A stretch of 64,000 nucleotides of DNA. It comes from Bryopsis sp. KO-2023 (taxonomy: Eukaryota; Chlorophyta; Ulvophyceae; Bryopsidales; Bryopsidaceae). Each line of letters starts with the position of its first letter. Position 1 is the first letter of the stretch. The position numbers and the translations under genes are program-made. The DNA lies in assembly GCA_030272585.1 (NCBI GenBank), contig BSYQ01000002.1:8618001-8682000 (forward strand), in the 5' to 3' direction. Below the pieces are notes generated by a model. It did not search any database. It had not been told where the DNA came from and saw only the letters and a list, made by a program, of their open reading frames with translations. Shown here in pieces: positions 1,380 to 38,497 of the stretch.

Positions 1380-1898
1380 AATGAACAAACTCATTCGTTC
1401 GACAACGAACAAGTTTCTCAAAATCATCCATTTCTTCTCCCTGTTTCTCTACTGAAAATTAGTCTGTTCATTCCTTCGTTTTTTTTATGCCAGGCGTTAA
1501 AGAGTGTCCAAACTGATCGTTGGGTGCAGCCAAAACCAGCTTTTCCAAGCTGGTCGGAAAAGTAGATGGGTGGTGATTGGGTGGTTTCGGGTTGGAGCTG
1601 CACCCACAGTCTGACTGATCTTGAGGAATGGGCCGGTGGGCTGGCAGTGGGGTTTATCGCTTTTGTTGGAAAACCAAGTGGGTTGATGCAAATTATAACA
1701 GAACCATGAACATTCAGGGTCCACTTAGACACGCACGCACACCAGGGCACGAAAACAACAGCAGTTTTTTTTCCTCAACATGCATGAAAATCCCCCCAAA
1801 AGAGGTAAAAAGTAACATCGAAAACAAAAACAAAAACCCCGCCGGCGGTTTCAGCACCGGCGGCTACGACCTCTCTGGCGCATGACAATTCGAGAGTG

Positions 1899-1970
1899 AA
1901 GGTTCGAACCCGGGACCTGGTGTCCAGGGATCCTCTAGCAGATCCCCTTGACCAGCGGGCGAACGATGAC
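1899..1970 (-). repeat. tRNA-derived repeat head (SINE-like), copy 1
   Basis: On the minus strand this has an A-box-like stretch (CCCGCTGGTCAAGGGG), an anticodon-arm-like hairpin (GGGATC/GATCCC), a long variable-arm-like hairpin (CCTGG/CCAGG) and a B box (GGTTCGAACC). The acceptor stem is not complementary, so it is a tRNA-like Pol III promoter rather than a tRNA. A flanking unit of several hundred bases (about 1,780-2,250) is shared with 38,051-38,122 and 48,479-48,548. Confidence 0.6.
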
Positions 1971-2280
1971 ACGCAGCGATGTCGCACTCAAGAACCCCCC
2001 CAAGGATGATTCACCCAACCGCCAGAAACTGACCAGTGGTGCGCGCGTCGAGCAGCTCTCCGACGTCTTCACATCCGTCCCCGGTCCAAACCAGCCGTCA
2101 ATCCGAATCGCTATCCTCGCGATGCTCACGCGTGGTGGTGACCAAAGCCACAACACATCGTCGTATGGGTCGGTCCAGCTCCACACGTTTTCCGACCATG
2201 TTGTAAGTACCCTGCCCCGACCCCTGCCCCGGCGCACCACACCAGGGCGTGTTTTATGTTTCTAACGGGGGAAAAAAACG

Positions 2281-3455
2281 ATGACTGGGACGGAGATGGC
2301 CGATGCCGAGGAAGCGGTGTCGATCCCTTTGCTCGATCATCAGAGTGGGGCCACTTCTTCTCAGTGCATATCACGACGAGACTCCAAACTGCGGAAATGG
2401 GGGGTGAGTTTTCCGAGAACCGTTTCCAGGAATGAGGGGGCGCTCCACTTGTTTCTGGATGGGTTTTTCATTATCCATGCCCAGACTCGATTAGTAATCA
2501 GTAATCAGTAATCAGGCCCCCTTGGCAAATACAACCAGTGGTAGACTTGTGTTGAAGTTTGCAGCTCCTTCTCCCTCCCCTCCAAAAGAACAGAAATGAA
2601 AAATGACTCATAAACGAATAGACAAAAATAGTGAAAAAAATGGTTGGCGTTTCTCGAGGGAGTCTTGATCTGGTTTTGAGATTTTGTTTTTCCTGGCTCA
2701 GGGCTTTGATAAAAAAGACAGTGCTGAAGAATGTTTTACCTTTGGGTGAGAGTCCAGTGAACAAACATGTATAAAACGGTGGTTATTATTATTTTTTTCC
2801 CTGAAGGTGCAGGCTTTGGCCTGGAAATTCGGTCAGTCATGGTTTATTTTGCGAGGGACTGTTGAATGTCTGACATGGAGCTGACGGAAGACATGCATTC
2901 CAGTGCTCTGCAAAGAAAAAGAACCAATAAAAAAAACAGATTTCTGCTTAGTGCTCTGCAAAGAAAAAGAACCAATAAAAAAAACAGATTTCTGCTTAAC
3001 CTTAATGAGGATATTTCACTCCTGCACATTCTTAAAACAGGGTTCCGAGAGATCCCTTGGGGAAAAAAGAAACTATGTCCTCAAGAAGAAAATACTCCAG
3101 AAAAGAGGATCCTTCTTGGGGGAGTTTTATCGATACAGAGAAGAGAGTGGACCTGGCTGGACGTATTCTTCGAGAAGGTTCCCTGATCAAAACGTCGATA
3201 TATAAAAACAAAGAGCAACGTGCCGTTGGCGCCAATTGGTATCGAATGCGCTTCTTGGACTTCATCTTGCGAAAACCACGTGAAAACTTCGCAGCTTTGC
3301 TAATTCGTAGATTTTTCTTCGATCAAAAAGTGTCTCAATGTTTCAACTACTACGTCTCTGCCAGGGTTTTTCTTTCTTTTTTTGATCAAAGTAACTGCAA
3401 TCCCATCCCTTCAAATTTGCTTAAAACAAATACTGCATATTTGAAAGCTCATTGA
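2281..3455 (+). CDS. Candidate small gene in left arm (unrecognised)
   Basis: Three stretches look weakly coding. The first is an ATG-initiated segment at 2,281-2,400 with a di-leucine-like IPLLDH motif, running into a GT donor context near 2,401. The second is a frame from 2,866. The third is a basic frame at 3,057-3,455 (132 codons). All are alignable with the mirror copy at 36,690-37,740, where the first segment keeps its start and about 30 codons but the third is cut by a stop. I recognise no domain. It is convergent with gene A. It could be a short multi-exon gene or chance open frames, and the latter is quite possible. Confidence 0.22.
2902..2997 (+). repeat. 48-bp tandem duplication
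   Basis: A 48-bp unit starting AGTGCTCTGCAAAGAAAAAG occurs twice in tandem. The mirror arm near 37,080-37,130 has one copy, so the duplication arose in this arm. The length is a multiple of three, so an open frame would gain 16 codons. Confidence 0.85.
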
Positions 3456-3818
3456 TCGCACAAAATAGAGCTGGTGCAAGCAGTAACTTGTCCCAGCTGA
3501 AAAATCGATTCAAAAAAATCCCCCCAGCATGATCTTATGGCTGGATTTTTCAAAAGAAAGGAAACGTTCTTCTCACTCTTTCCCAAATAGAAGTATGTAA
3601 CTTCTTCCTTAACGTATTTGCAAAAAAAAAAAAAGCGCTCAAAGACAAAAAAAGAAACGAAAAGCGAAAGAAGAGAACTAAATTCAAAACTGGGGCTTTC
3701 GTTGAAAAAACAAAATTCAATGCTAAGAGAAACACAATATCACATAGATAAAAAAAAAGCTACTGCTACACGGAGTCAAGCAACACAGGAACAGGGCAGT
3801 CGAAATGCACTCGTCTCT

Positions 3819-6800
3819 TCAATCTTTTTTGAAAAGGTCTTCTAGCTCTTTTTTGTCCGCATTGTTCCCATTGCCCACACAAAAAACCTCGGCAGCAGTT
3901 GTCCCTTTGTTACTGCGGATGTCTTTCCTTGCACCTTCGGAAACGTGACACCACAAAAATGTTTTTTATCGAAAAAAAGATGCCAGTGCGAGCTTTTTCT
4001 TATCACAAGAATCTCACATTTTCGATATCAATCAAATTTGGGTGATGTTTCCTTGACAGAGTGCTAGATATTTTCTAGTGGAGAAAAGAGTAACAAAGAG
4101 AACTGAGAAAATTTCAAGGCACAAATATATCTTGCGTTTTTTAAAAGGGTTCTTTTTTCCAGCCCAAAAAGTTTTAACAAGAAACAATCAACAGGCAGAT
4201 TTGTGCATGAGTTGAATTTGTTTTGTCTTCATGGGATAACAACAGAGGAAAAAAGCTTCAAGAATCTGAGTGGAGCTACCGTGATTGATCAAATTCCGGA
4301 CGACATCAATGTGGCCCGCCTCTGACGCATAATGTAGTGCCGTGTACCCCCCGATAGTTTGAGCATTGACATTGGCCCCTGAAAAATTGAATTTTTAATC
4401 TGAACAAACGAAAAAAGCCCTTCGTTCCCTTTAAAAAATCAATAGCACAAAGATAAATCAAATTGTCTCGGGTTCCAACCGTTAGAAGAAAATTTTTTAA
4501 AAAGAGTTTTATATATTTCTTTTTACCTCGCACAACTTTCTTCATTTTGGAAGTCCAAAAGATCGAAAAAGAAACAAAAATAGTTCGACCCTACTCAAAA
4601 AAGTCATCATTGTAAAAACGACAAAAACTTCGATTAAGCAAGTGGAAGTGCCCCCGTTCTTTCTCATTCTTGGTACGAAGGTAAGAAAACCAAGCTAAAG
4701 CTTACCAGCGTCCAACAATTCCTTCACCACTTTGGAGTGGCCTCCCCAAGATGCCCAATGCATGGGAGTTCGTTTTTTCCTATCGCTCAAATCAACATTG
4801 GCTCCTGAACACGCACGACAAAGGTACACAATCAACTTCCTTTTCTTCTCAAGCTCAAGAGAGAGCCTAAGTTTCAAAAAGCCACCAGGCATTTTGGGGA
4901 AAAAAAAATAACAAGTTCTTCAAATCAAACAATCATAATCCCAAATGACCGATGGGTGACATCTTAAAAGGGGTGCCAGCCCGCTAAGGTGAAAGTTAGG
5001 ATAGCTCAAATCGATGGTATACCCTTATTCATAGAAAAAAAAGAAAGATGTATTTTTGTAAGATGTATATATGGTATGGAAGAAAGGACATTGATATAAT
5101 ATCGATACTCTTAAAGAATGGTTGAATATATAGACTTGTATGTTGATAGGACTTTTGAAAAAGACTAGGCCAAAGAATATACTTCCTATTTCGAAAAAAG
5201 AAGCACAGACAAATGAGAGTATTGTTTTGAAGTTTTGGCGCACCTTTTAAAAGTAGTGTTTTGACGATAGGACGATGTCCTTTCTGGGCTGCCCAACAAA
5301 GTAGGGTTTTTTTTCTGTCATCTTGAGTATTGACATCAAATCCCATGGATATCAATGCCTGAAAAAGTGCACATTTTGATATTACAAAATAAATGAAATA
5401 AAATATGATTTCGAGTTATGAAACATGAAACAAGTAGATGGGAGAACGAAATAGGAAATTTTTTACCTCGACTGTTTTGAGATCATTATTCTTGACAGCG
5501 TCCAAGAACAGTGGCACACCTCGGTCCTGTTGTCAAACAACTAATAAAATAAATAATAGGAGAGCGGCATCTCCTACACAATGTAAATGATGTTTGTTTG
5601 TTTGTTTGTTGTCAAACAAGATCACCAAGGCATGTTTTTTTAAACGGGAGTGAAAATTTCCGAAGCCAAACACGCAACACTTAAAAAATTGCAACAGAGG
5701 ATAAAGCTACTTCCCCTACCTTGAAATTTTGCACAGTTCTTTCTGCAACAAATGAACAAAACTTTTCAGCAACAATTCTTTTTCTGTTTCTGAGGAGATT
5801 TTGATATTATACGCAATTTTTATTAAATTTATTGATCAAGCATTCAACGTTTACTTCTCTTTATCGACCAAATTTGGGGATAAACGAAGTAAGCTTTTTT
5901 GAGATTGTGTTGAAAACTTTTTTAACTCCCCCCCCCCAAAAAAAATCAACATTGAGTAGGTATTGCCATACCTATATTCTCAACCACTCCTTCCAACGAT
6001 TGTATCTCGTCATCTTTTTTCTGGATCATCTCTTTCTCTTTTCGCTCAGTTGCTTTTATCATTTCCTCTTTCTGGCTGATAACTTCATCTTGTTCCCTAT
6101 TTTTTTCCTCAAGCAATGAAATCCTTGATTCTTTTTCACGCTCCAGTGCTGCAAACTCACCTACAACAAACGAAAAAAAAGCCTATCTCCTAAGCGTTTT
6201 CTTACTGACCAGTTAGAAACTGTGCAAGTCAAATATTGACTGAATTTTTTACACTCTTGGCACGTGGAGCGCGCATACCTTTCAGCGCTTCGATCTCATG
6301 CTCCCCAGAAACAGCAATCTGATCGTCCTTCTCGTTGAGTTGCCCCTGTACCTCCTTGACCTGCTCTCGCAGGGAAATAACTGTGGCGTGATATTCTTCA
6401 ATTTCACACTTGGCATTTTTCAACTGCTCCCCAGAAACAGCAATCTGATCGTCTTTCTCGTTGAGTTGCCCCTGTACCTCCCTGACCTGCTCTCGAAGGG
6501 AAGTCACTGTGGCTTGATATTCTTCAACTTCAGACTCCGCCTTTTTGAACTGCTCCACAGAAGCAGCAAAATGAGCGTCTTTCTCCTTGACTTGCTCACG
6601 AAGAGATTTGACGACGGCTTGATTTTCTACAACATTCGCAGCCTGTGTCTGTAACCTGCCGATGTCGGAGAGCGCATTTGAAATCAACGCATCTCTCAGA
6701 TCAATTGTAGCGTCCCTGACAGAGATACAATCGTTTTTCTCATCAAGTTGCTTCGCAACGTTGTACAGCTCTTTTTCTTTCGCGTCCACTTCTACCTGAA

Positions 6801-8944
6801 CGATTACACACAAACGAAACGTATCTGCTTGGCGTTGTGTCATTGTTGTCGAGTAGAGCCGGTCAAGAGCATGGGCGCAACCAGGGGGGGGGGCTGGCCC
6901 TCCTAAAAAAAGTTCTGGCCCCCCCAAGAAAGCCAGCAAGAAAAAAAAAATCCTATTCACAGATATATTCCCAGATTTTCTACTGCACGGTACAAAAACT
7001 AAAGGTGGCCCCCCAAAAAATATATTTCGGCCCCCCCTCCCCCGAAATCCTGGTTGCGCTCTTGACTGAAGAGAAACGACTATTAGACTACCTTCAGCGA
7101 GCGTATCACTTCAGACACGTTTTCTACTTTCGTCAACGACTGCTGCAGCCTCGATCCTGGGCTAGCTGAGTGGCAAACCGAAAAAAGGATCGTTACAACA
7201 TCTTCAGTACGAACTGGATTGTTTGAGGAGACAAGGGCGACGAATCAACAACACCACACCACTATATCCCGACACAACATCCACCCCACCAAACTGAAGG
7301 GGGAAAGAGAAAAACACATGGAATCGGATGAATCTTTAGAAGCTAGCGCATGGTTTCGCGACCTAAATAGAGGTACAGAACGACACGAGGACAAGCAAGC
7401 GTGTCATTGCTCTTCGACTTCATGGATTACATTCTCTCACCTCGCACAAAGTCTTCTTGGGAACTGCGCAGGACCTCTTCACGAAAGCTATCCCTGACTT
7501 CCAGCTCATCGAGACGGGCAGGAAGATCAACGATTTGTGCTTGGGTGTCTGGCGTCTCCTTTTCAGTCGAACACTTTCCTGAAAAAACGCACAATGTGCC
7601 CCCCTGAGTCAGGGGCATTGACTACAAGTGTCTTACAACCTCATGTAACAAAGCGTAAGGGCGCGTTTGTTGGTCGATAAGCCACGACGACGGCTTTTGA
7701 CAACATTTCCACAAACGCCACGGAGCTTCAAGAGATGTCGAAATTGGTTGGGGGGGGGGGAGACTAGAGGGGAAAGAAGACTTTGCTGTGGCCCCTGTGG
7801 GAGCCCTTTCGTCGGCCAAAGAAAACGGCGCGGTGTGGATATGAGGGCAAGTAGATCCCTGACCAGTTACCTTGCAAGGGACGATCCTGATCGGCTGGAA
7901 TGGGCCCGTTGAGAAACTTGTTTTCAACGTCTTTCACTCCAAAAGCTCCTTCACCATTCAATTGCAGGAGGGAAGCAATGCCTGTGTCAAAAAAAAATCG
8001 TTTAAAAGAGCGGAGCTGCGAGAGATTTTTTTGTGTATGTCGTTATCCATAGCACTGCCAGGCAGCAAACGCATACGTTTCCATCATTTCATTTACCCAA
8101 CCCGTGCGCGTGTTGCACACGGGAAGAAATTTGTCATCCCTCTCAGCTTAAGTTTTTTGAACATCTACACAGCCCCAACTTGGATGCCCAAATTCTCAAA
8201 CTACCACATCACTTCAACGCCCTGAACGTTGCCAGCAAACCGCGTTCGATTCACACAGGAACACCCACGATATAGGATCCACCCCCCTGACCAGAACGGC
8301 GAATGATAAAATGAAAACGGAAACGCATGTAACATTCGAACAGTCCCAAGCAGACAAAATAGAAATGGCGCGACAAGAACCGATCCGCGCACTCCGATTT
8401 TGTGGGTGTATATCCTCTCACCTCGCACAGGGTCTTCTTGAAAACTGCGCATGATCTCCTTACGAATATCACCCCTGGCGTCCGGGTCATTCAGACGGCC
8501 ACGAAGAGAACGAAATCCCACTTGACCATCTGCCTTCTCGCGATCACCTGAACATTTCCCTGCAAAAGCGCACAGTGTGGTTCCTGACTACTACAACCGC
8601 GGCAAAACCTCAAAAACAAAAGAAAACAGCGGAAGGACGCACGTTCGCTAGCTGATAAGACACCGCGGATGCTTTTCACAGCATTTACACAATCACGGAG
8701 CTTCTCAGGTGTCCCTATCGTCGTCGAGAGGAGAAGAAGGCTGTGCTGCGGCTGCTTCAGTAGCAACACTTTTATGATCCAAAGAACTGCGCGCGTGCTT
8801 TGCGAGAATATGGGGACAAGGAGGTGGTGTATTACCTCGAATGGAACCATCCCGACCGTCCGACATGGGCTCGTTGCAAAGCTTGTCTTCGACTGCTGCA
8901 CCCCAAGACCCCCTCCGACTGTTCGACTGCAGGCTGGAATCCAT
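3819..8944 (-). CDS. Gene A: alpha/beta-module, coiled-coil, ankyrin-repeat protein
   Basis: Thirteen exons on the minus strand (5' to 3'): 8944-8836, 8559-8422, 7981-7871, 7578-7441, 7165-7092, 6795-6279, 6160-5972, 5742-5720, 5526-5467, 5358-5244, 4804-4706, 4378-4280, 3934-3819. All have GT-AG introns, and the lengths sum to 596 codons including the stop. Exons 1 and 3 are the 'alpha' type (VEDK...GRD core, about 37 aa) and exons 2 and 4 the 'beta' type (charged, helical, about 46 aa, ending VRG). Exon 6 is a heptad-like coiled coil with an internal repeat (QLNEKDDQIAVSGE occurs twice). The 3' exons encode three ankyrin repeats and a tail ending in LEDLFKKD. Most introns are phase 1. Ankyrin repeats and coiled coils mediate protein binding; the cellular role is unknown. 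The first ATG (exon 1, just inside the acceptor-like junction) is inferred, and an untranslated 5' exon is likely. Confidence 0.85.
5541..5608 (+). mobile_element. 68-bp mini-insertion with retroposon-like tail
   Basis: It sits in an intron of gene A between two copies of TTGTCAAACAA (5,530-5,540 and 5,609-5,619). The mirror intron in gene C has a single copy of that sequence, i.e. the empty site. The insert contains a short hairpin (GGAGA...TCTCC), then ACAATGTAAATGATG, then (TTTG)n. This fits target-primed retroposition. Confidence 0.8.
6870..7066. mobile_element. hAT-like MITE, ~197 bp
   Basis: It lies in a gene A intron. Termini carry the inverted repeat GGCGCAACCAGG / CCTGGTTGCGC followed inward by G-runs and C-runs. 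Likely target duplication is GTCAAGAG / CTGAAGAG (imperfect). It is absent from the mirror intron of gene C. A related element is at 57,988-58,164. Assignment to hAT rests on terminal resemblance and an ~8-bp duplication only. Confidence 0.55.
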
Positions 8945-9289
8945 TCCTGTGTCCACAAGAGTCGTTTGAAACTGTGGAGCTGTGAGACCTTTTTAAGCTT
9001 CCAGGAGGCGTTGTCGCGTCTGTCGTGTCCGTTGTGACTTGAGGGAACACTATGAGACGTTCTTCGCACTCGCTGAGCGAACACTCGCATACGTATACCC
9101 CCTTTCTATCTTTTCGGTGACCCAACCCGACCCAACCCGCAAGTGTACCGCACGTGGACAGGAATTCGCCGTTTGAGATCAGAACACGCGCCAGAAGGAG
9201 GCGGAAAAATGAAGGTGCCGCGATACATTCGTTACTGCCACAGGAGCGCGCCACCTTTCAAAAACGAGATCGCATATGCTACCATGCCT

Positions 9290-9440
9290 TTCCTTTCGTT
9301 TTTTGTTGGTGTTGGTGCTGTTGCTGTTGCTCTGCATCGAACTGTTGTAGTTCTGGCTCGCTTTCTTTGCTCCACAGGTCCACAACACAGGTTTCTGGGG
9401 AAGAGGATTAAAAGAGGGTGAACTCTGGTATCTGGCTATT
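9290..9440 (+). repeat. Direct repeat flanking the extra 8-kb block (left)
   Basis: The segment starting 'gttggtgttggtgctgttgct' and ending 'tatctggct' recurs in the same orientation at 17,395-17,530 and once in inverted orientation in the right arm (30,735-30,875). It therefore brackets the ~8 kb present only in the left arm. Confidence 0.65.
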
Positions 9441-9639
9441 TCAAAATTCGCATAGACTTTAAATATAAAAAAATAGAGATGCTCACCATCGTGGTGGTGA
9501 GCCAGATGTATAGGGGGGTTGGGGGGTTGATTTGTTTTGTGTGTGTGTGTCTATTGGCTGTTTGTTTTACAGAAATGTTCATACAGACCCAGATCTGTCC
9601 GCGACCCTTTGCTTTCACATACAGCCGCAAGATCTAACT

Positions 9640-9950
9640 TCTGTCAAGTAAAAGGAAGTAATTTTTTTGGTTGTGTGTGTGTGTGTTTTATTTGGGTGGG
9701 GTAGGGGATAGGAAGTGAATCTGATTTTTCATAAATCTGTGGACTGGGCTCTGTTGGTTACATTTTTTGTGTTTTCAAGGGGTATGGTAGGGGTGTTTAA
9801 CAGGCTTGATGAAGAATTGATGGATAATCTGAAGACAGTGGCGTATTGTTCCTCTCACTCCTTTTTTTAGATTTTGAACTAATATTGTATTTTGATTTAG
9901 TTGCATATTTTTTTTTTGGAGGGGGGGGGGAGAGTGAGAGACTAGCACAG
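9640..9950 (+). repeat. Dispersed repeat, copy 2
   Basis: This corresponds to bases 1-330 and lies immediately upstream of gene B. It includes a TG microsatellite and a G-run. No gene is seen between 9,440 and 10,190. Confidence 0.5.
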
Positions 9951-10191
9951 AAGAGAAAGAGTGATACACCTATGTTGTACTCAGTTAAGATTATGTACTG
10001 TGTCCGTCGGTCGGGTCACCGAAAAGATAGTAAGGGGATACACGTATGCGAGTGTTCGCTCAGCGAGTGCGAAGAACAGCTCATAGTGTTCCCTCAGGTC
10101 ACAACCGAAACGACAGACGCAACCACGCCTCCTTGAAGCTTAAAAAGGTCTCAGAGCTCCACAGTTTCAAACGACTCTTGTGAACACAGGA

Positions 10192-13100
10192 ATGGCTTCC
10201 AGCCTGCAGTCGAACAGTTGCAGGGGGTCTTGGGGTGAGGCAGTCGAAGACAAGCTTTGCAACGAGCCCATGTCGGACGGTCGGGATGATTCCACACGAG
10301 GTAACACCGCGTTCTTCTGCTCGTATTCTCACGAAGGACGTGCTTTTTTTTCGAACAGCAAGGGACGTTGCTACCATATCAGCCACTGCACAGCGTTCTT
10401 CGTTTTTCGACCCACGATAGACGCCTGCGAAGCTCCGTGTTGTTTGTGTGAATGTTGTCTGGAAGGGTTGTGCCGTCTTATCAGCTAGAGAACGTCCACA
10501 CGTTTTCTTTCCTGGAGTCTCGACGCCGTTGCAATCAGGGATCTCACTGAGCTTTTTTTGGCTTGCTTTTACAGGGAAGCGTTTGGGTGAGCCTATGAAG
10601 CCAGATACTCAAGCGGAAATCACTCATCTTCGTGCCCGTCTGAATGAACTGGAAGTCCGAGGTGATTTTCATAAGGAGATCATGCGCAGTTTTCAAGAAG
10701 ACCCTGTGCGAGGTAAAGGAACATTTTTGAGGGTGTTGAAAAGCAAACGCACTGGCTTGCCACCCCCTTTTTTTTCGTTTTGTTTCTTGGCTAGGGCGCG
10801 CTGCAGACGTGCCGAATGATCAAAGTACATACGATCGTGTATTGTTTCTCTCATTTCTTTGTCAACGGGTAGACAAACAAATCTCATATTACATTCCTGT
10901 GGATGACCACGTTGTGACGACATAAGGTCGCTGGTCGTGGTTCCAGGACAATATCTGGGATGCAAACTATCTGTACCCAAAACGACCCTAGTCACTTAGA
11001 AATTGTTGTAAAAGTCTTTTTTTCTGGTTTCATGTATGGCAGCCCCAGGGTCAAGGTTGCAACAGTCGCTGATGAAAGTCGACAGCGTTTCTGATGGGGT
11101 ACACGCGTTGAAGGTACTCCAACTACTTTGTTTTTTTACCAAAAATATCACAAAACACGCCAGGCCAGAGCCGAAACCATCAACTATTTTACAATTTCTG
11201 TTGTAATGCACACCCAGACGGGACATCCGTTTGTGTTCTATCGTCCAGGTCGCCCTTGACGCGAAAGATGCGCATCTACACTGCGTCCTGGAGAAACTCG
11301 AAGAAAAAAACCGTTGCATATCTGCCAGGGACGCCATCGCTGCTGAAAGAGATGCTTTGCTTTTAAAGGCTCTCTCCCGCATACACGAGTTACAGACACA
11401 AAATGTGGGTTTTCAAGAAAATGTGATTGAGCAGCTGCAGGATTTTGGGGAGCTGCAAGCAAACAACAGGTCTAAACTCTGCGAAAAGGATATGGAGATA
11501 CTGGTAGAGAAAGATGCCCTGATAAAATGCCTACAGGCGAGCCTCGAAAAGAACGTCGCCCAGAGAGTTGCCAGGGAGGAAGAGATTGAAGCTGTGCGAG
11601 GTACGCCCGCTCAAGATGCCAAAAACAGGAGAGATGTAGTCCATATTTGAGCTGAATCATTTCTAGTTGGGATAAAATGGTAAGGGTGAAGGCTTTGTTT
11701 TTCTCGTTGTAGCCAGCTGTAAGAAAAAATTGACTGGGAAAGACGAGAAGATCACAGCGCTGGAAGAAAACATCAGGGAGCGAGATGAAGTGATTAATCG
11801 GAAGGAGGATATGATCAGAGCAAGTGCTGAGAGCCACCAAACAAAATGCAGCGAGATCAAAGCGTTGAGAACAGAGTTTGACGACATAAGTATGGCATAT
11901 TACAAAACCTACCAAATCCTCAGTTCGATATTCCGCCAGATACAGTGTTACTTATCACATTTCCCATACACGCACTTCACTCATCCCGAATTGTTCTAGA
12001 ACTTTCGGATTCTTTTGTCGCAGAGAAAATTTTCGCTTCTCTTGTCGAGACAGAAGAAGAGGTAATTTTGCGGTGTGTTGCAGTTTTACTTGACGCTAGA
12101 TGGCTCGGGATATTTTTATAATCATCAGAAAAATGTACTCTTGTCTTTGATTTTGCTATTGTATTGAGAAGACAAGTGCGGAGCTGCTTCAGGATGCTGT
12201 CGAGGATGGTAACCTTTTACAAGTCAAGGTAAGAAAATCCTGATTCTTTGACCGAACTTGTTTCCTATTGTCATCGCATGCAAACATATTTCTTATTGCT
12301 TCAGGCTTTCTGAATGTGTGTTGTGACAATGTGCATTTTTTAGGCGTTCATATTCATGGGATTTGATGTAAATACTCAAGGCGGAGGAGAATGCACCCCA
12401 CTACACAAGGCTGCCGGGTCTGGTCATCTTTCTATCGTCGCAACTCTACTTTCAGCAGGTTGGTCAAGAACTTTGGTTTTCCTCGAAACTTTCTTGGTGT
12501 GCCCCTTCAATTTGCGCGTTCAAAAAGAAACTACTAATAGTTGCTTCCCGTCGTCGTGCGTTGCCGTCCTTGTTCAGGGGCCAGTGTTAATAAGAAACGT
12601 AACTTTGGTTGGACTCCACTGCATCAAGCATCTCTAAAAGACCACTCCGCAGTGGTGAAGGCACTGTTGCACGCTGGTAAACTTTTGCTCCGAAGGAATT
12701 CGTTTGTTTTTTAAAATCAATATGCTTACATGAAAAAGAAGGAAGGGAATTCCAAAAAATCAATCAACACAAGAGGGAGTCCCACTGATGTGAGACAAGT
12801 AGCCTAAGTTTTCAATATCATTCTTGTATAAAAGCAAAAGGAAGAATTCGTGTTTTTTTTTTTATGGACTTGATAAGGATCTATTGATCCCTTTTTCAGG
12901 AGCATATGTCAATGCTCAAAATGAAAAGGGGGAAACGGCGCTACATCTGGCGTCCATGAATGGCTGCCTTGACACAGCCAGGGAATTGATCAACGGTGGT
13001 AGGTCACTCTGACATATCGTTTATTTCTCAGTTGTTTAGGGTGTCACTCCCATCAAGACTATACAAATTCATTCAGAAATTTGGCTACTGAGAGTTTTTC

Positions 13101-14727: not shown

Positions 14728-16307
14728 ACAGATGAGCAGTTTCATTTCGACTGTCCTTCTCTTTTTCTGCTCGACTTCCTGTTTGATAGGCATTTTTCTG
14801 TTTGTGCTCTACTGAGTTTTTTAGACGGATCTATTCCACTTCGTTAGTGGTGATATAAGCTCTTTCAACACAAATCCCACGTTGAGTTCAGATTTTGTTT
14901 CGTGCTTCTTGTTTTTGACTTCTTTTGCAAGGGGGTCTTGTTCTGTAGTAGTAGTAGATCCATACATTTTTGAAAAAAAAACAACGATAGGATGAACAAC
15001 AGGAGGATTTCTGTCTACCAATATTATTGATAAGCGATGGACGAAGAAGAAAAAAATCCTCAAGTTTTAGATCAGTGAGATGAGATAACACATTCCTTGC
15101 ACCAGTTCTATTTTGTGCGCTCAATGAGCTGACAGACATGCATGCATTGATGGCATCAATTTATAGTAAGCAATCGGTGATAAACTCATCTGGCCACTTT
15201 GCACCTCAATGAAAAGATTTGTTTGTACAAATGTGTCATTCCTTTTCCCTTTTTCTCTTCATTACGACAAGAACCCCCCTCGCAAACAGACCAATGAGCC
15301 CTGCTGTCGAATTTCTTTCCTGAAAGCGAAAAGGAAACATCCTGTGAAATACCCCGGCCAGCAAAGGGGTCGATCTATGCAATTGTTTTGTCTCGGAAAA
15401 ATCCAACTAGCATGGGATGGATGGGACCTGGATGGCTGGGATGCATCCCATCCAGAGATAGTAGCATGGCTACCGGGATGGCGATTGAATGTACGTTGCT
15501 GACATCCACCTGAGTTGAAGGGGAATGTTGATGAGCTGCCCATTGGAAACCGAACCCAATGTTTGAAGGTCAGCAAGGAGAATATCTCTGTAGGATATCT
15601 TTCGGACGAGTTACCGGAAAGACAGAAGAGACTACTTCAACAGCGAACGAGTGGGCATGGATGAATGAAAATCGTATAACCAGAGAAAATCATAATAAGG
15701 AAAAAACGTCACGTTGAATCAAGAAAATGCTTGGCCCTGCCTGCCCTCTTGCTGCATGCATGTTGTGCGGGTTTTGAAGACGGTAGAGCTGGGAGGGGGT
15801 GGTGTTTTTGGAGAGACATCAAGGGATGGCTTCCATCCTGGAGCCATTGCTTCGTCTGGACAAATGGATTGTCATCGAGTTGCCTATTTTCACAAAGGTG
15901 AGAAAATTCCGGCGTGTTTGAATTTGTGGGCTAGGCTGAATGGGTTTGGTGACCATTGATTTTCGCAATCTCTCTTGTTGCTGCGATGCAACCGTATTGG
16001 ATTTTACAATTTGTGAATCCCCCCCTTCGTTTTAGTCATCGACACAATTGAAATCTCATTCGATATGCATGCCAGAAAACTAAGAAAAGTTCTTTGCTGT
16101 CCAGATGTTTTTACAGAACCAAATTTGGAATGTTTCAAACCACCCCCTTTCGTCCCTCACTCCTCCCCCCACCCTGCCCATTTTGGGGTGTCCAGTACAT
16201 GGTCCCTTTCTAAACAGGAAAGAGGAAATTGCTCGTCGACACTCCTCTACGATCAACGATACCAATGCCAAGAAAACCCACCATGTATTGAGATGGCTCC
16301 TCCTCAG
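14728..16307. other. No supported gene
   Basis: The part up to about 15,150 follows gene B and resembles nothing nameable. At 15,420-15,470 there is a cluster of GGATGG/CCATCC motifs. Short open frames exist on both strands, none with a recognisable domain. Confidence 0.5.
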
Positions 16308-25894: not shown

Positions 25895-25899
25895 CTCTG

Positions 25900-28800: not shown

Positions 28801-30890
28801 GAGGAGGCAAGGAAAAGGCGAGCCACCAGCCGAAAAAAACACTGAAAAGGAAATGGTAAAAGGAGAGTTTGGGGGAGGGGGTCGACAAAAAGCTGTTCAA
28901 AAATGCTGCTAAGCAAGGCTGCGGTGGAAAGCTCACCAAGAGTGAGGGTGGGGGTGTTATCCGGGGGGGACTCTGGTGAGGTTTTCCCCTGAAGATGAGA
29001 TCAGCAGGATGAAAGCGTCTGACCTGGGGAGGGCTAGAGATAAACACTCAAATCAATCAAGAGGCAGACTGCACTTCAGCTCGCCCAGGCTGTCATGCAG
29101 AAACTCTATTGCATGCCGGTTGCGACACTTCCATTTGCGATTCTGGTGCATGCACCTTTTTAATGCACTCTGCTGAGCCATCCCCCAGGGCTTCTTCCGC
29201 CGTTCAATTATCTATTGTTCAAAACTGAGGGGTGCAAAATCCCCAGTCCTGTCACATCGTCACTCCCAGAAACTCAACCCCCTTTTGCACGTTGTTAAAT
29301 GATAGGCACATCCCTGATTTCTAGAATGTCAAGGTGGATTTGTACATTGCTCAGGCCTCTCTGAGCTGCGCAACAGGATCAGGAGACTGACATTCATTTT
29401 CTCGTTTTTGCTCGGGTGTCCTTGGGCTGTGAAATATCAGTGTCATATAACATTGCTGTAATGATTCGTTTTTTACATTCCCTCAGTAGGCTTGTCTTCA
29501 CATGTCTTGTACAGCGCTGGGTTAAATGCTGCCCTTCGACACTCAAGGGAATTGCTTTTGAATTTTTAGCACTCCATCAAGCAGGGTGGAGGCCAATCTC
29601 CATTTGTGCACCCCCCTAAGATTCATTTTGGGTTTTTTCATGAGGTTGATTTCAATGGCTGGGGGTAGCTCCTGTATCGACATACATTTTTGGGCTTTTG
29701 AGGAGGAGGGGCATCAGTAACAGAAAAACTGCACCCAACAGGTGGAGAAGGCATTTAAAAAAAATGGAAAGTGTTAGAAAAATGGAAAGGGAAAAAGTTC
29801 TGGAATCAGTCGAAGTGTTTTTTTGAGTTGGTCGCTGAGCTGGCATTGATTGGTGAAGGACCTTGTGTAAATCAACCCGGAGGGAAAAACATGTGATTAC
29901 AGAAAGATAATGTCCTTAATTTGTTTCGCTACATTACAATCAGAAACGGAACTGAATTTGAATTGAAAATGTAGGTGTCTTTCTTTGGATGGTTTTTTTA
30001 ACACCATACCTCTCACTGTTTGAGGTTCAGGGAGATTTACACTTGGCACTCCAACTGCACAACTAACTATTTGAATACCTACATATACCAGCATTTAAAG
30101 CGATAATCAACAACAAGAACAGCACCCCTTTGGGAAACAAGCTGAGCCATTACACGTCCCCCCTCGATTGTGCTTTTCCAAACGCAATACAGATATCGAA
30201 CAAAAAGTTCACCTCCTCCCTCCCTCTCCTAACAAGTCAACGCAAATCCGACCATCTTTTCAACCCGTTTCCAAACATGTTAGAGAACTTATGCAGCACC
30301 TCTTGCCCGATATGTCACAGCTCAAAAAGTGCACGAGCCTTGCTTGCTGCATTCCTTGTGCATCCACAGCAAGATTCGAGACTCAATGCTGCACGCTCTG
30401 GCTGCGTCGAATACATTGGCGATGGCAGTCTTGATGGCTTCAGCAGAAGGCGTCTGAAATACTGTCCTGTGTCGTTCACACAGACGTCGACACCGTCGCC
30501 GCCTCGACCACCAGAAATCGACACCCTGGATGTCACACTGAAACTCGAAGAAAAGCTTTATCCTGCACAGCAAAATGTTGAAAAGAGAGAAGGCACCCAA
30601 CCGTCTTTTTGGATTGGGAGGAGTAACAACGATGAGAAGCGCTTCTTCGGATTTGTTTTCGTCTCTCCTCCTCCGCGTTGAATCCTCCTGCTGCTTTTAT
30701 TTTCAATATTCCAAGTCTCAGCGAATCGAGGAAAGCCAGATACTGTAGTTCATCTTTTTCTTCCTTAACAACCTGTTGTGTGCAACTGTGGAGTGAAATT
30801 AGCGACCAGAATGACAAGATTTTCAAGTAAAGCAACAGCACCCACACCAACACCAAAAGAATAAGGAAAGCCTTTCCTGGAAAGGCACGG
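25900..30890. repeat. Palindrome, inner right arm
   Basis: Mirror of 17,371-22,300. Between 26,000 and 30,275 it holds repeat R1 (inverted, 27,360-28,110), the tRNA T-arm-like piece (27,358-27,402) and a C-run near 28,324. No gene is supported. A frame at 28,729-28,860 matches the left-arm MAQEMDAVFLDAMP frame but breaks soon after. Confidence 0.88.
30275..30690 (+). CDS. Open frames in near-identical block, right-arm copy
   Basis: The plus strand is open from 30,130 to 30,681 (183 codons), of which the last ~132 match the left-arm minus-strand frame almost perfectly. The first ~50 codons are not kept in the left arm. The opposite strand is also open (30,533-30,898, 30,322-30,600). No domain is recognised. 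Confidence 0.25.
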
Positions 30891-31228
30891 CAGCACATGC
30901 GATTTCTCTTTTCAAAGGTGGCGCGCTCCTGTGGCAGTAACGACAGTTATCGCGGCACCTTCAGTTTTCCGCCTCCCTCTGGCGTGTGTTTTGATCTCAA
31001 ACAGCGAATTCCTGTCCATGTGCGGTACACTAGCGGGTTGGGTCGGGTTGGGTCGCCGAAAAGATAGGAAAGGGATACACGTATGCGAGTGTTCGCTCAG
31101 CGAGTGCGAAAAACGTCTCATAGTGTTCCCTCAAGTCACAACGGACACGACAGACGCGACCACACCTCCTTGAAGCTTCAAAAGGTCTCGCAGCTCCGCA
31201 GTCCTTAACGATTTTTGTGGACACAGGA

Positions 31229-34200
31229 ATGGCTTCCAGCCTGCAGTCGAACAGTTGGAGAGGGTCTTGGGGTGAGGCAGTCGAAGACAAGCTTTGCAAC
31301 GAGCCCATGTCGGACGGTCGGGATGGTTCCACACGAGGTAACACCGCGTTCTTCTGCTCGTATTGTTACAAAGGACGTGCTTTTTTTTCGAACAGCAAGG
31401 GACGTTGCTACCATATCAGCCACTGCACAGCGTTCTTTCTTTTTTCGACCCACGATAGACGCCTGCGAAGCTCCGTGTTGTTTGTGTGAATGTTGTTCGG
31501 AAGGGTCGTGCCGTCTTATCAGCTACAAAACGTGCGGCAACACGTTTTCTTACCTGATCAGGTTTCGACAGCGTTGCAGTCAGGGGCCACACTGAGATTC
31601 TTTTGGCTTGTTTTTACAGGGAAGCGTTTGGGTGAGCGTGAGAAGCCAGATGCTCAAGAGGAAATCGCACATCTTCGTGCCCGTCTGAATGAACTGGAAC
31701 GCCGAGGTGATTTTCGTAAGGACACCATGCGCAGTTTTCAAGAAGACCCTGTGCGAGGTGAGAGGATCTATACCCAGAAGGTCGGATTCCACGGGTTCTC
31801 TTGCTTGTTGCGACGTTTCTAGTTTTTCTGCTTGGGCCTGTCCAAATGTTATATGCGCTTCCGTATTTTTTTTCTTATTCGCCGTTCGGGTCGGCGGGGT
31901 GGATACTGGGGTGTTCCTGTGTGAATCCAACACGGATTGGCAGGGGGATGGGGTGATGTGATATTCTGTTGATTTGGGTATCGAAGTTTGGGCTGTGTAG
32001 ATGTTCAAAAAACTTTACCTGAGGGGAATGGCAATTTTTTTTTCCTCATAAATCATTGATTACATTTAAGAGGCAGCCGTCGACGACCACCTAAATTTAT
32101 TTCCGTGTGCAACACGCGCGCATAGGTTGGATCACTGAAATGATGGAAAGGAGATAAACATATGCGACTGTTGCCTGGCAGTGTAATAGATAAGGACAGA
32201 CACGATAGAATCTCTCGCAGCTCCGCACTCTGAAACGATTTCTTTTCTCACAGGCGTTGCTTCCCTCCTGCAATTGAATGGTGAAGGAGCTCTCGAAGCG
32301 AAAGAAGTTGAAGATAAGGTTCTCAGCGGGCCCTTGGCGGCCGATCAGGATCGTCCCCTGCAAGGTAACTGGGGATCTACTTGTGCTAATATTCACACCA
32401 CGCAGTCTTCTTCACCCAACGAAACTTCGCCCACAGCACAGTATTCTTTCCTCGCCCCAACCAAACAACCAACCAATAGTGACATCTCCTGAAGCTCCGT
32501 GATGTTCCGTGGAAATGGTGTAAAGAGCCGTCTGCGCATTGTCATTATATGAGGTTGTGGGACAGTTGTAGTCAGGGGGCACATTGTGCTTTTTTTTCAG
32601 GGAAGTGTTCGACTGAAAAGGAGACGCCAGACACTCAAGCAGAAATCGTTGATATTCCTACCCGTTTCGATAAGCTGGAAGGCAGAGATGACTTTCGTAA
32701 AGAAGTCCTGCGCAGTTCACAAGAAGACCTCGTGCGAGGTGATAGACCCCATTCCAGGAAGTCGAAAAGCAATGACCTGCTTGCTTGTCCTCGTGTCTTT
32801 CTGTACCTCTATATAGGTCGCGAAACCATGCGCTAGTTTCCAAAACTTGATGCGATTCCATACGTTTTTCTCTTTCCCCCTGCAGTTTGGTGGGGTGGAT
32901 ATAGTGGTGTGGTGTTGTTGATTCGTCGCCCTTGTTTCCTAAAGGATCCTGTTCGTACAGAAAATGTTGTAACGATCCTTTTTTTTGTGTTTGGCACTCA
33001 GCTATCCCAGGATTGAGGCTGCAGCAGTCGTTGAAGAAAGTCGACAACGTGTCTGAAGTGATTCGCCTGCTGAAGGTACTTCAATAGTCGTTTCTCTTGA
33101 CGAGCTCTACTCGACAATAATTCTTAAAGGCCAGGAGGGGACATTTTTGTTTGTGTGCGATTGTTCAGGTCGCCGTTGACACGAAAGAAAAAGAGCTGCA
33201 CATCATTGCGAAGCAGCTTGAAGAGAAGAACGATTGTATCTCTGGGAGGGACGCCGCCATTCATCAGAGAGATGCCTTCATTTCAAATGCTCTCTCCGAC
33301 ATAGGCAGGCTACAAGCACAAGCTGCGAGTATTGTAGAGGACCAAGCTGCAGTGAATTCTCTTCGTCAGCAAGTCATCGAGAAAGACGCTCAGATTGCTG
33401 CTTCAGGGGAACAGTTGAAAAAAGCCGAGTCCGAAGTTAAAGAATCTCACGGCACAGTGAATTTGCTGCAAGAGCAAGTCAAGGAGGTACAGGGGCAGAG
33501 AGATGACTTGATAATATCTCTTCGAGCGACTCTTGAGGAGAACGTCGCCCACAGAGCTGCAAAACAGCACGAGATCGAAGCGCTGCGAGGTATGCGCGCT
33601 CCATGTGCCTAGAGTGTAAGAAATTCACTCAATATTTGACTTGGACAGTTTTTAACTGGTCAGTAAGAAAACGCTAAGGAGACAGGCTTTTTTTTCGTCC
33701 CTTGTAGGTGAGTTTGCAGCGCTGGACCGTGAAAAAGAATCAAGGGTTTCATTGCTTGAGGTAAAAAAAAGGGAACAAGATGAAGTGATCAGCCAGAAAG
33801 AGGAGATGATAAAAGCAACTGAGCGAAAAGAGAAAGAGATGATCCAGAAAAAAGATGAAGAGATACAAGCGTTGGAAGGAGTGGTTAAGAATATAGGTAT
33901 CGCAATACATACTCAGTGTTGATTTTTATTTTTATTTTTTTGGGGGGGGGGGATTAAGAAACGTTTTCAACACAATCTCAAAAAAACTTGCTGCGTTTAT
34001 CTCCAAATTTGGTCGATAAAAAGAAGTAAACGTTGAAGCAGTCGTGTGCTTCTTGATCAAAAAAATCAATAGAAATTGCGAAAATATCAAAAACTCCTCT
34101 GAAACAGAAAAAAAAATTGTTGCTGAAAAGTTTTGTTCATTTGTTGCAGAGAGAACTGTGCAACATTTCAAGGTAGGGGAAGTAGCTTTATCATTTGTTG

Positions 34201-36252
34201 CAAGTTTTTTAGTGTTGCTTGTTTGGCTTTGGAACGTTTTCCTCCCGTTCAAAAAGATATGCCTTGATGATCTTGTTTGACAACAGGACCAAGGTGTGCC
34301 ACTGCTCTTGGACGCTGTCAAAAAAAAAGATCTTAAAACAGTCAAGGTAAAAAAAGTCCTATTTCGTTCTCCCATCTACTTGTTTCATGTTTCATAACGT
34401 GAAATCATATTTTGTTTTTTCATTTAGCTTTGATTCTTTTTGTAATATAAAAATGTGCACTTCTCTTAGGCATTGATGTCCATGGGATTTGATGTCAATA
34501 CTCAAGATGGCAATAAACAAACCATACTTTCCTGGGCAGCCGAGAAAGGACATCATTCTATCGTCAAAACACTACTTTTGAAAGGTTTGCCAAAACTTCA
34601 AAAGAAAACTCTCATTTGTTTTTGCTTCTTTTTTCGAAATAGGAAGTATATTCTTTGGCCTAGTCTTTTCAAAACTCCTGTAAAAATACAAGTCTATCGA
34701 TTCAACCATTCTTTCAAAGTATCATTCGACAATATATCAATGTCTATTCTTCCAGACCGTGTGGACACAAAATACATCTTTCCTTTTTTTCTATGGATAA
34801 GGGTATACTATCGATTTGAGTTATCCTAACCCCCTCCTTAGCGAGTTGGCACCCCTTTTAAGATGTCACCCATCGGTCATTTGGGATTATGATTATTTTA
34901 TTTGGAGAACTCGTTATTTTTTTTTCTCAAAAATGCCAGTTGGCTTTCTGAAAATTAGGCTCTCTCTTGAGCTTGAGAAGAAAAGGAAGTTGATTGTGTA
35001 CCTTTGTCGTGCGTGTTCAGGAGCCAATGTTGATTTGAGCAATGAGAATGGATTGACTCCCATGCATTTCGCATCTGAACATGGCCACTCCGAAGTGGTA
35101 AAGGAATTGTTGGACGCTGGTAAGCTTCAGCTTGCTTTTCTTACTTTCGTACCAAGAATGGAAAAGAACAGGGGCACCTCCACTTGCTAAATCGAAGTGC
35201 TTGTTGTTTTCACAATGATAATTGTTTTGGGTAGGGTTGAACTATTTTTGTTTCTTTTTCTATAAAGAAATTCCAAGATGAAAATAGTTGGGCGAGGTGA
35301 AAATAAATATTTTCTCAAAAAAGTTTTTTTCTATAAACCGTTGGAACCCGAGACAATTTGATTTATATTTGTGCTATCGATTTTTTATGGGAACGAAAGA
35401 CTTTTTTCCGTCAGTTGAAGTGATAAGATTAAAAATTCAATTTTTCAGGGGCCAATGTCGATGCTCAAACTGGCTTGGGGAACACGGCGCTACATAGGGC
35501 GTCCATGTATGGCCGCCTTGATATCGCCAGGAAATTGATCAACCATGGTAGCTCCTCTCAGATTTTTGAAGCTTTTTCCCTCTGTTCCTTATCCCATAAG
35601 GACAATACAAACTACACTCATGCACAAATCTGGCTGCTGATTATTTCTTGTAGAAATGTTTCTGGGCTGGAAAAAAGAACCCTTTAAAAAAACACAAGAT
35701 CTGCTTGTGCCTTGAAATTTTCTTAGTGCTTTTCTTTACTCTTTTCTTCACTAGAAATAATCTAGCACTCTGTCAAGGAAACAGAGTTGTGCGCCGTTCC
35801 AACGGCGCACAACTCCGGTTCGAAGGGACGCTCCCAACCGCCAGTCAGCTCGTCGACAATCGTGCGTTTGAGATTTTGAAAAAATTATAAATTATTGGAA
35901 AATGTATCAGAGTCGTGCCGACGTCGTTTTTGCGACAACGACAACGAGCGTTAACCGTTAACGCTGTTAACGGCCGTTGTCGTTGTCGCAAAAACGACTT
36001 CGGCACAACTCTGCAAGGAAACATCACTCAAATTTGATCGATATCGAAAATGTGAGATCCTTGTGACAAGAAAAAGCTCGTACTGGCATCTATTTTTCGA
36101 TAAAGAACAGTTTTGTGGGTTCACATTTTTTCGCAGATGCAAGGAAAGACATTTGCAATAACGATGGGAAAACTGCTGCCGAGATTATTCGTGTGAACAA
36201 TGGGAACAATGCGGACAAAAAAGAGCTAGAAGACCTTTTCAAAAAAGATTGA
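31229..36252 (+). CDS. Gene C: alpha/beta-module, coiled-coil, ankyrin-repeat protein
   Basis: Thirteen exons: 31229-31337, 31620-31757, 32254-32364, 32601-32738, 33002-33075, 33169-33589, 33708-33896, 34150-34172, 34287-34346, 34470-34584, 35021-35119, 35449-35547, 36137-36252. All introns are GT-AG and the total is 564 codons with stop. The exon order is alpha, beta, alpha, beta, a short linker, two coiled-coil exons, a 23-nt microexon, then three ankyrin repeats (GFDVNTQDGNKQT, ANVDLSNENGLTPMHFA, ANVDAQTGLGNTALHRA) and the LEDLFKKD tail. Junctions inside the alpha/beta and ankyrin parts are phase 1; those around the 60-nt exon are phase 0. It differs from gene A mainly by a coiled-coil exon 96 nt shorter. 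A scaffold or adaptor role is a guess from the domains. It is likely functional, since all exon lengths keep frame. Confidence 0.87.
35782..36013. mobile_element. hAT-like foldback element, 232 bp
   Basis: The ends are CAGAGTTGTGC and its inverse, flanked by the 8-bp duplication CAAGGAAA (35,774-35,781 and 36,014-36,021). The mirror intron in gene A has one copy, i.e. the empty site. Inside, 35,784-35,813 is a perfect hairpin. From 35,908 there is a second foldback starting CAGAGTCGTGCCGACG and sharing the right end, with GTCGTTTTTGCGACAACG arms. CAG termini with 8-bp duplications are typical of hAT elements. It lies in the last intron of gene C. Confidence 0.8.
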
Positions 36253-36689
36253 AGAGACGAGTGAATTTCGACTGCCCCCTGTTCCTCTGTTGCTTGACTC
36301 CGTGTAGCAGTAGCTTTTGATTGACATTATTATCTATGTTATATTGTGTTTTTCTTACCATTGAATTTTGTTTTTTCAACAAAAGCCCCAGTTTCGAACT
36401 TGGTCCTCTGCGTTTGCTTTTCGTTTTTTTTTTCTCTTTGAGCGGGGTTGTTTTTGTGCAAATACGTTAAAGCAAAAGTTACATACTTCTATTTGGGAAA
36501 GAGTGAGAAGAATATTTCCTATCTTTTAAAAAATCCTGTCATGAGATCATGCTGGGTGGATTTTTTTGAATCGATTTCAGCTGGGACAAGTCACTGCTTG
36601 CACCAGCTCTATTTTGTGCGATCAATGAGCTTTCAAATATGCAGTTATTTTTAAGAAAATTTGAAGGGATGGGATTGCAGTTACTTTGA

Positions 36690-37740
36690 TCAAAAAAAGA
36701 AAGAAAAACCCTGGCAGAGATGTAGTAGTTGTAAGTTACAACTTGTAACATCGAGACACTTTTTGATCGAAGAAAAATCTACGAATTGGCAAAGCTGCGA
36801 AGTTTTCGCAAGGTGAAGTCCAAGAATCGCATTCGATACCAATTGGCGCCAACGGCACGTTGCTTTTTGTTTTTTTATATCGATATTTTGATCAGGACAC
36901 CCTCTCGAAGAATACGTCCATCCAGGTCCACTCTCTTCTCTGTATCGATAAAACTCCCCCAAGAAGGATCCTCTTTTCTGGAGTATTTTCTTGTTGTTGA
37001 GGACATAGTTTCCTTTTTCCCGAGGGATCTCTCGGAACCCTGTTTCAAGAATGTGCAGGAGTGAAATATCCTCATTAAGGTTGAGCAGAAATCTGTTTTT
37101 TTTATGGTTCTTTTTCTTTGCAGAGCACTGGGATACATGTATTCTGAGCTCCATGTCAGACATTCAACAGTCCCTCGCAAAATAAACCATAACTGACCGA
37201 ATTTTCCAGGCCAAAGCCTGTAGCATCAAAAAAAACAAACCATAACCACCGTTGAAAACATGTTTGTTCACTGAGATCTCACCCAAAGGTAAAACATTCT
37301 TCAGCACTGTCTTTTTCATCAAAGCCCTGAGCCAAGAAAAACAAAATCTCAAAACCAGATCAAGACTCCCTCGAGAAACGCCAACCATTTTTTTCACTAT
37401 TTTTGTCTATTCGTTTATGAGTCATTTTTCATTTCTGTTCTTTTGGAGGGGAGGGAGAAGGAGCTGCAAACTTCAACACAAGTCTACCACTGGTTGTATT
37501 TGCCAAGGGGGCCTGATTACTGATCACTGATTACTGATCGAGTCTGGGCATGGATAATGAAAAACCCATCCAGAAACAAGTGGAGCGCCCCCTCATTCCT
37601 GGAAACGGTTCTCGGAAAACTCACCCCCATTACCACAGTTTGGAGCTCGTCGTGATATGCACTGAGAAGAAGTGCCCCCACTCTGATGATCGAGCAAAGG
37701 GATCGACACCGCTTCCTCGACATCGGCCATCTCCGTCCCA
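36690..37740 (-). pseudogene. Right-arm copy of the small candidate gene
   Basis: On the minus strand the ATG segment with IPLLDH is retained near 37,740. A frame at 37,397-37,164 contains a hydrophobic stretch (LDLVLRFCFSWLRALM). The basic frame corresponding to 3,057-3,455 is interrupted by a stop. No family is recognised. If the left-arm gene is real, this copy is probably broken. Confidence 0.22.
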
Positions 37741-38050
37741 GTCATCGTTTTTTTCCCCCGTTAGAAACATAAAACACGTCCTGGTGTGGTGCGCCAGGGC
37801 AGGGGTCGGGGTCGGGGACTTACAACATGGTCGGAAAACGTGTGGAGCTGGACCGACCCATACGACGATGTGTTGTGGCTTTGGTCACCACGCGTGAGCA
37901 TCGCGAGGACAGCAATTCGGATTGACAGCTGGTTTGGACCGGGGACGCCTTCGAAGACGTCGGAGAGCCGCTCGACGCGCGCACCGCTCGAGTTTCTGGC
38001 GGTTGGGTGAATCATCCTTGGGGGGGTACTTGAGTGCGACATCGCTGCTT

Positions 38051-38122
38051 GTCATCGTTCGCCCGCTGGTCAAGGGGATCTGCTAGAGGATCCCTGGACA
38101 TCAGGTCACGGGTTCGAACCTT
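38051..38122 (+). repeat. tRNA-derived repeat head, copy 2
   Basis: Mirror of 1,899-1,970, with the same A-box-like region, two hairpins and B box (GGGTTCGAACC). The flanking shared unit spans about 37,790-38,240. Confidence 0.6.
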
Positions 38123-38497
38123 TACTCTCGAATTGTCATGCGCCAGAGAGGTCGTAGCCGCCGGTGCTGAAACCGCCGGTGGGGTTTTGTTTTTGTTATC
38201 GATTTTACTTTTACCTTTTTTGGGGGAAAAACCTGCTGTTGTTTTCGGTGTGTGTGTGCGTGTTTTCTTGAATCCTGGATGTTTATGGTTCTGTTATAAG
38301 GTGCACCAACCCACTCGGTTTCCCAACAAAAGCGAAAAACCCACAGCCAGCCCATCAGCCCATTCCTTAAGATCAGTCAGACTGTGGGTGCAGGAACCAC
38401 CTAATCACCACCCATCTACTTTTCCAAAAAAGCGGGAAAAGCTGGTTTTGGCTGCACCCAACGGTCAGTCTGACTGACGTCCCTGACGTCTCTTTCG

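Follow-up and report, generated by a model that had tools for sequence, protein, structure and literature searches.

A nested inverted gene-family cluster in Bryopsis nuclear DNA with mosaic arm identity and probable ectopic gene conversion

Gene-family clusters with tandem or inverted copies are known to undergo ectopic gene conversion, by which paralogues are homogenised in patches and the relationships between copies switch; nested inverted layouts are less usual than direct tandem arrays. Here we describe a nested inverted layout at 1.5–38.5 kb of a 64,000-nucleotide stretch of DNA (the window) from Bryopsis sp. KO-2023 (assembly GCA_030272585.1, contig BSYQ01000002.1, positions 8,618,001 to 8,682,000 of the forward strand), in which F-box/WD40 genes and coiled-coil/ankyrin-repeat units are present in inverted and direct copies. 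The closest described objects are palindromes that carry genes and whose arms stay alike through arm-to-arm conversion, as on mammalian sex chromosomes and the willow W chromosome. Of these, W.P1 of willow has a 2.6-kb spacer within a span of about 42.7 kb, and the excerpted text of its report gives an average identity above 99% for four arms of the willow W palindromes and a 3-kb region without arm differences (PMC7023750). Arm identity above 99% is also given for mammalian X palindromes in the excerpt of PMC8981503, while that of PMC6790999 presents the human Y palindrome P8 as a case of birth, expansion and death by ectopic rearrangement.

As far as these excerpts go, the locus resembles the willow W palindromes (PMC7023750) in its inverted gene-bearing arms around a spacer of a few kilobases, its difference-free stretches beside differing ones and the transposons inserted in its arms. 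Unlike in willow W or the mammalian X (PMC8981503), mean arm identity is 87–91% instead of above 99%. It also differs from sex-chromosome palindromes in that its tracts are about 0.1–0.6 kb long, its arms are unequal in length and sex linkage is not known. Two inverted arms do lie within one locus; because the high-identity feature is absent, the locus is not classed as a conversion-maintained palindrome and behaves like one in patches only. With human Y P8 (PMC6790999, in its excerpt) it shares inverted copies of which parts were added, lost or enlarged, but it is not known as sex-chromosomal, and a single sequence was compared here instead of population variation. With gene clusters under ectopic conversion it shares both patchy homogenisation and relationship switching, and nothing essential differs. 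We describe the locus as a cluster of gene-family members in inverted copies that has probably undergone ectopic conversion, which is a familiar kind of genome change and no new system; among the matches listed in a literature search, no title described it.

As shown by blastn comparison of the window with itself, two families of minus-strand mirror matches are present, with best E-values of 0. Coordinate sums are about 39.8–40.2 kb for the outer arms and 48.3–48.7 kb (axis about 48.4 kb) for the inner arms (Table 1). The nested mirror pairs with sums near 40,000 and 48,500 proposed in a first-pass annotation of this DNA were thereby recovered, with E-values far from chance, and two of the checks it had named beforehand, self-comparison and arm identity by window, revealed mirror arms whose identity ranges from about 70% to 100% (250-column windows). 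Overall identity is 0.869 for the outer arms (7,342 aligned columns) and 0.906 for the inner arms (4,391 aligned columns), and similarity is lost toward the outer ends. The same annotation overestimated the extent of the palindrome, described as nearly the whole left 38 kb, as the matched arms account for about 25.3 of 37.0 kb (about two thirds of 1.5–38.5 kb) and 9,473–17,365 occurs on the left only. Its picture of a single inverted duplication with a short centre proved over-simple in view of a third copy of the outer unit and a gene-bearing centre of 3.8 kb (22,267–26,078) between the inner arms. The outer and inner axes differ because the left side holds these 7.9 kb (9473–17365) that are absent on the right, where outer and inner arms adjoin with an overlap of about 190 bp (30700–30891). 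The left counterpart of this overlap is doubled (9293–9472 and 17387–17557), the two pieces being about 74% alike (71% in the self-comparison).

The third copy, termed M, lies within the left-only stretch and is discernible solely as exon-sized blocks. Eight of the nine blocks are 58–68% identical when aligned with padded ends (local matches score higher), while the ninth, 10009–10714, has 88–90% identity to the right arm; a 1.3-kb transposon (13201–14501) interrupts the copy. M is diverged and oriented like the right arm, so that an older inverted pair, arranged head to head, already makes up the left 15 kb; the 37-kb palindrome forms one of the layers of a multiply duplicated locus. Further F-box/WD40 copies at 41.0–42.1 and 51.4–52.5 kb make the palindrome part of a larger duplicated cluster. 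Two other repeats lie in or beside the arms. One, dispersed and about 400 bp long, is found at 1750–2153, 37873–38279 and 48286–48720 with the three copies about 94% mutually alike, so its presence at both outer arm ends may be unrelated to the palindrome. The other is a 175-bp inverted pair (17100–17274 and 53657–53831, 92% alike), the first member of which ends just outside the left inner arm.

Identity along the arms forms a mosaic. After removal of columns whose local identity did not exceed 0.6, the matched columns of each arm set (4,471 inner, 7,281 outer) were shuffled 300 times. The longest identical run obtained was 99 bp for the inner and 87 bp for the outer arms, versus observed runs of 438, 215, 168 and 129 bp in the inner arms and one of 189 bp in the outer arms. 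Matches counted per 100 columns had a variance 7.0 times (inner) and 6.2 times (outer) the binomial value. A three-state hidden Markov model (HMM) with hand-set rates delimited five tracts of 86–633 columns at 98–100% identity, flanked on both sides by sequence of 81–92%. Several duplications of different ages, leaving adjacent segments of unlike age, could produce a patchwork without gene conversion, and several duplications are indeed clear in the cluster (F-box copies at 22, 25, 41 and 51 kb; the outer unit three times). We find this rather unlikely as the explanation, since all five tracts (86–633 aligned columns) sit inside collinear 81–92% sequence and the replacement of an internal segment in register corresponds to gene conversion or a double crossover.

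Identity peaks may alternatively mark constrained functional sequence, either exons or regulatory DNA. Open reading frames (ORFs) cross parts of the tracts (e.g., 17561–17932), a third copy for comparison is missing over most of the largest tract, and GC content is somewhat higher in four tracts (0.48, 0.41, 0.54, 0.49) than in three flanks (0.41, 0.39, 0.38; significance not computed). As a control for constraint we used eight arm blocks, some of them overlapping, for which a further copy exists in the window. In seven of the eight, the third copy was 0.67–0.83 identical to either arm, whether the arms were 0.79 or 1.00 alike, and in a 113-bp block within the 20016–20579 tract the arms were 100% alike at a third-copy identity of 0.705. 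Moreover, the main outer-arm peak (2114–2751) does not overlap the ankyrin and coiled-coil exons that were located. Constraint is therefore a distinctly improbable cause of the peaks, and run length, the HMM and seven of the eight third-copy blocks indicate, indirectly, tracts homogenised between the arms above background.

A change of relationship between copies was seen in a three-way alignment of M and both arms, for which we used only windows inside about 9,997–10,729, as M is poorly placed outside. At M 10297–10579 the identity of M to the right arm was 96% and 86%, while left and right arms were 61–66% alike, versus 76–93% in the windows around the switch. Since it is the left arm that stands apart here, the switch reflects either an exchange between M and the right arm or sequence taken into the left arm from an unseen copy.

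The arms also differ by clean insertions. At the 11 junctions between collinear blocks there are six one-sided gaps of at least 40 bp, three two-sided length differences (164/68, 85/42 and 65/431 bp) and two smaller or tandem-repeat differences, which bears out the earlier claim of several independent insertions. Judging from their ends and target lengths, we take the 199-bp left-arm insertion to be similar to a hAT-type miniature inverted-repeat transposable element (MITE) and the 224-bp right-arm hairpin to be a Mutator-type, foldback MITE-like element. The 97-bp left-arm insertion contains a fragment of plastid psaB. A Pfam search of 118 ORFs gave a match to PsaA_PsaB (2.5e-8) for one of them, reported for the set as a whole, and tblastn with PsaA/PsaB sequences as queries placed the fragment at 18922–19008. 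Since it brings part of a plastid gene into nuclear DNA and the right arm has the empty site, the insertion qualifies as nuclear plastid DNA (NUPT); a photosynthetic plastid is thus present in the lineage or was so in the past. An assembly fold-back, or haplotypes misplaced in inverted orientation, is a known hazard for large inverted repeats and was judged here from the assembled sequence alone, yet we hold it highly improbable given an average arm divergence of 9–13%, single-arm insertions with an empty site opposite, similarity that fades at the outer arm ends and 7.9 kb on the left without a right counterpart.

The centre is occupied by two convergent F-box/WD40 genes, the ATGs of which (22564 and 25894) sum to 48,458 and are roughly symmetric about the inner axis. 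Genes of this type, with an N-terminal F-box followed by WD40 repeats, were recognised by Pfam matches above cut-offs in 22528–23481, 24824–26011 and 40982–42073; FBXW7 chains rank 6–8 among the PDB matches to the last of these. The two central genes are only distantly alike and their synonymous divergence (dS) is saturated. In comparison, dS between the B1 gene and the 41-kb copy is 0.62, and between the B1 gene and two pieces of the 51-kb copy 0.44 and 0.39. The arm beside the central pair is 72–79% alike over its first 0.65 kb or so and up to 100% farther out. A young inverted duplication, as previously suggested, is thus not supported for the whole, with the central pair saturated and arm identity at 70–80% in places. 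Near its 3′ end the B1 gene carries a 410-bp insert, which, from its ends and target length, is presumably solo-long terminal repeat (LTR)-like; the first reading frame stops at 23481. The division of the 51-kb copy over two frames suggests a pseudogene, a sequence error or an unrecognised intron. A 0.5–0.6-kb repeat in the same orientation (39344–39914, 48948–49477, 52718–53290) lies near F-box copies, differently placed relative to them. When the viral_contigs set was scanned with the B2 F-box protein, one stretch matched the pattern and no relative was found.

The outer unit contains ankyrin-repeat matches in the left arm (5032–5415, 4698–4919), the right arm (34470–34826, 34801–35187, 35433–35684) and M (12344–12634), as well as a coiled-coil ORF (6229–7110 left, 33121–33612 right). 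No family could be assigned to the ORF at 6229–7110, for which Pfam gave weak coiled-coil-type matches below curated cut-offs and PDB a single match with an E-value of 0.0051. Over nine blocks of left arm versus M there was no clear excess of third-position mismatches, the three codon positions being roughly equal; mismatches were also roughly equal over codon positions for many of the arm ORF pairs listed, and firm gene models for the arms were not obtained. Because a clear third-position excess is lacking, the predicted outer-unit genes may be decaying or evolving fast, and we make no claim of function for them.

Taken as a whole, the locus is likely explained by gene conversion that patchily recopied an old inverted gene-family duplication. 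A nuclear cluster of F-box/WD40 and coiled-coil/ankyrin-repeat genes would have grown through repeated inverted and direct segmental duplication, and its inverted copies would then have diverged separately by mutation and by insertion of transposons and plastid DNA. Ectopic gene conversion would have recopied stretches of about a hundred to several hundred bases between inverted copies, the outcome being a mosaic of about 70–100% identity instead of a single uniform age. The copies in inverted and direct orientation, the mosaic, the single-arm insertions and the greater divergence of the central genes are observed directly. We infer that such exchange between copies is the simplest overall cause and that it made the identical tracts; the order of duplications is deduced in the same manner. 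The arm-to-arm gene conversion put forward in the first-pass annotation is in this way supported, not proven, by runs that exceed those of 300 shuffles and by third copies only 67–83% alike in seven of eight blocks.

Several points weigh against this explanation. A single sequence was analysed, so conversion is read from the mosaic and not observed, and rates uniform along the arms are presupposed in the shuffle test. The eighth control block (1750–2153) gives no support, as its third copy is 0.946 and 0.937 identical to arms that are 0.935 alike. In the largest tract (17477–17914) the third copy, and with it the direct control for constraint, spans just about 81 of 438 bp. All three copies are 88–93% alike in the windows at M 9997–10296; at the switch, the left arm may have been altered by an unseen donor rather than M and the right arm exchanging sequence, and the tracts could derive from a donor copy at another place in the genome. 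It may also be that the two symmetric F-box genes are older and that the arm was duplicated next to them. Finally, without a clear third-position excess between left arm and M, the outer genes may simply be decaying.

Conversion between old inverted copies could also have a consequence for the genes, which we regard as a doubtful proposition. The nested copies would act as a sequence reservoir, with conversion among left arm, right arm and M reshuffling coiled-coil/ankyrin segments (M at 10.0–10.7 kb would exemplify such three-way conversion), while the central F-box/WD40 genes would escape and diverge, making this a locus of active diversification. Existing knowledge is unchanged by the locus, which represents ordinary genome evolution in unusually legible form. 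It offers a compact, single-window record of the ageing of an inverted gene-family cluster in the nuclear DNA of a eukaryote with plastids, in which duplication, patchy recopying and clean insertions can be read. Its third copies provide partial controls from within the window that aid in distinguishing conversion from constraint, and the locus is useful as a test case of gene conversion with no known link to a sex chromosome.

Table 1. Positions of the arms, tracts, genes and insertions in the window.
Feature	Position	Strand	Basis and remarks
Left outer arm (A')	1509–9472	-	Self-comparison; intron-broken coiled-coil/ankyrin-repeat unit
Right outer arm (A)	30700–38472	+	Self-comparison; inverted copy of coiled-coil/ankyrin-repeat unit
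Left inner arm (B1)	17366–22266	+	Self-comparison; upstream of F-box/WD40 gene
Right inner arm (B2)	26079–30891	-	Self-comparison
Third, old outer-unit copy (M)	10009–15142	+	Self-comparison; right-arm orientation; within left-only stretch
Putative conversion tract, 438 bp identical	17477–17914 = 30343–30780		Longest identical run; HMM
Putative conversion tract, 137/137 aligned columns identical	19650–19798 vs. 28894–29030		HMM
Putative conversion tract, 99.5% identical	20016–20579 vs. 28103–28669		HMM; third-copy control
Tract, 98% identical, including 189-bp identical run	2114–2751 vs. 37277–37909		Shuffle test; HMM
Tract, 86-bp identical run	4785–4870 vs. 34955–35040		HMM; not above shuffle maximum (87)
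F-box/WD40 gene of B1	22564–24013	+	Pfam F-box-like and WD40 in 22528–23481; 3′ piece by comparison with 51–52.5 kb copy
F-box/WD40 gene of B2, distant paralogue	24827–25894	-	Pfam F-box-like and WD40 in 24824–26011
Third F-box/WD40 gene, direct repeat, outside palindrome	41021–42073	+	Pfam F-box-like and WD40 in 40982–42073
Fourth F-box/WD40 copy	51411–52459	+	Homology divided over two reading frames
66-bp insertion, left arm only	5541–5606
199-bp insertion, left arm only, inverted ends	6870–7068		Relative near 57995–58125
97-bp insertion, left arm only, with plastid psaB fragment (NUPT)	18912–19008	-	Right arm is empty site; no clear target duplication
197-bp A-rich insertion, left arm only	19322–19518
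410-bp TG...CA insert in B1 F-box gene	23460–23869		ACAAC target duplication; absent from 51.4–52.5 kb copy
51-bp insertion, right arm only	32042–32092
224-bp hairpin insertion, right arm only	35784–36007		About 10-bp target duplication; inverted repeat 35908–36013
SRP RNA, plant-type	46611–46900	-	Rfam
tRNA-Arg	47327–47402		Rfam; read as tRNA-Arg by ARAGORN
U4 snRNA	56510–56638	-	Rfam
U5 snRNA	56731–56843	-	Rfam

The transposon that interrupts M (13201–14501) is a shorter relative of one at 42879–46448, which encodes a DDE_Tnp_1_7 (piggyBac-type) transposase (ORF 43849–45912, E-value 1.2e-32), and the two have TGTCCGAGTTACCAG ends in common. In the reading TGTCC...GGACA, each has a 4-bp direct repeat on its flanks, CCAT in one case and CTAT in the other (two sites only), instead of TTAA, the typical piggyBac target.

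The window is eukaryotic nuclear DNA, as it contains SRP RNA, U4 and U5 genes (all above Rfam gathering scores) together with a tRNA. U4 and U5 lie on the same strand with about 90 bp between them, and the SRP RNA and tRNA-Arg genes are about 9–10 kb away. Two Rfam matches below gathering scores were dismissed as chance: mir-274 (35.4 bits vs. a cut-off of 56), located on the 224-bp hairpin insertion, and tmRNA (18.8 bits vs. a cut-off of 47). A leucine-rich repeat (LRR) match from one of 93 ORFs was not reproduced in 10 hand-picked ORFs. Tandem-repeat units are present at 61513–63415, where the Pfam CaMKII association domain and SnoaL-like families match 62546–63415 in two stretches.

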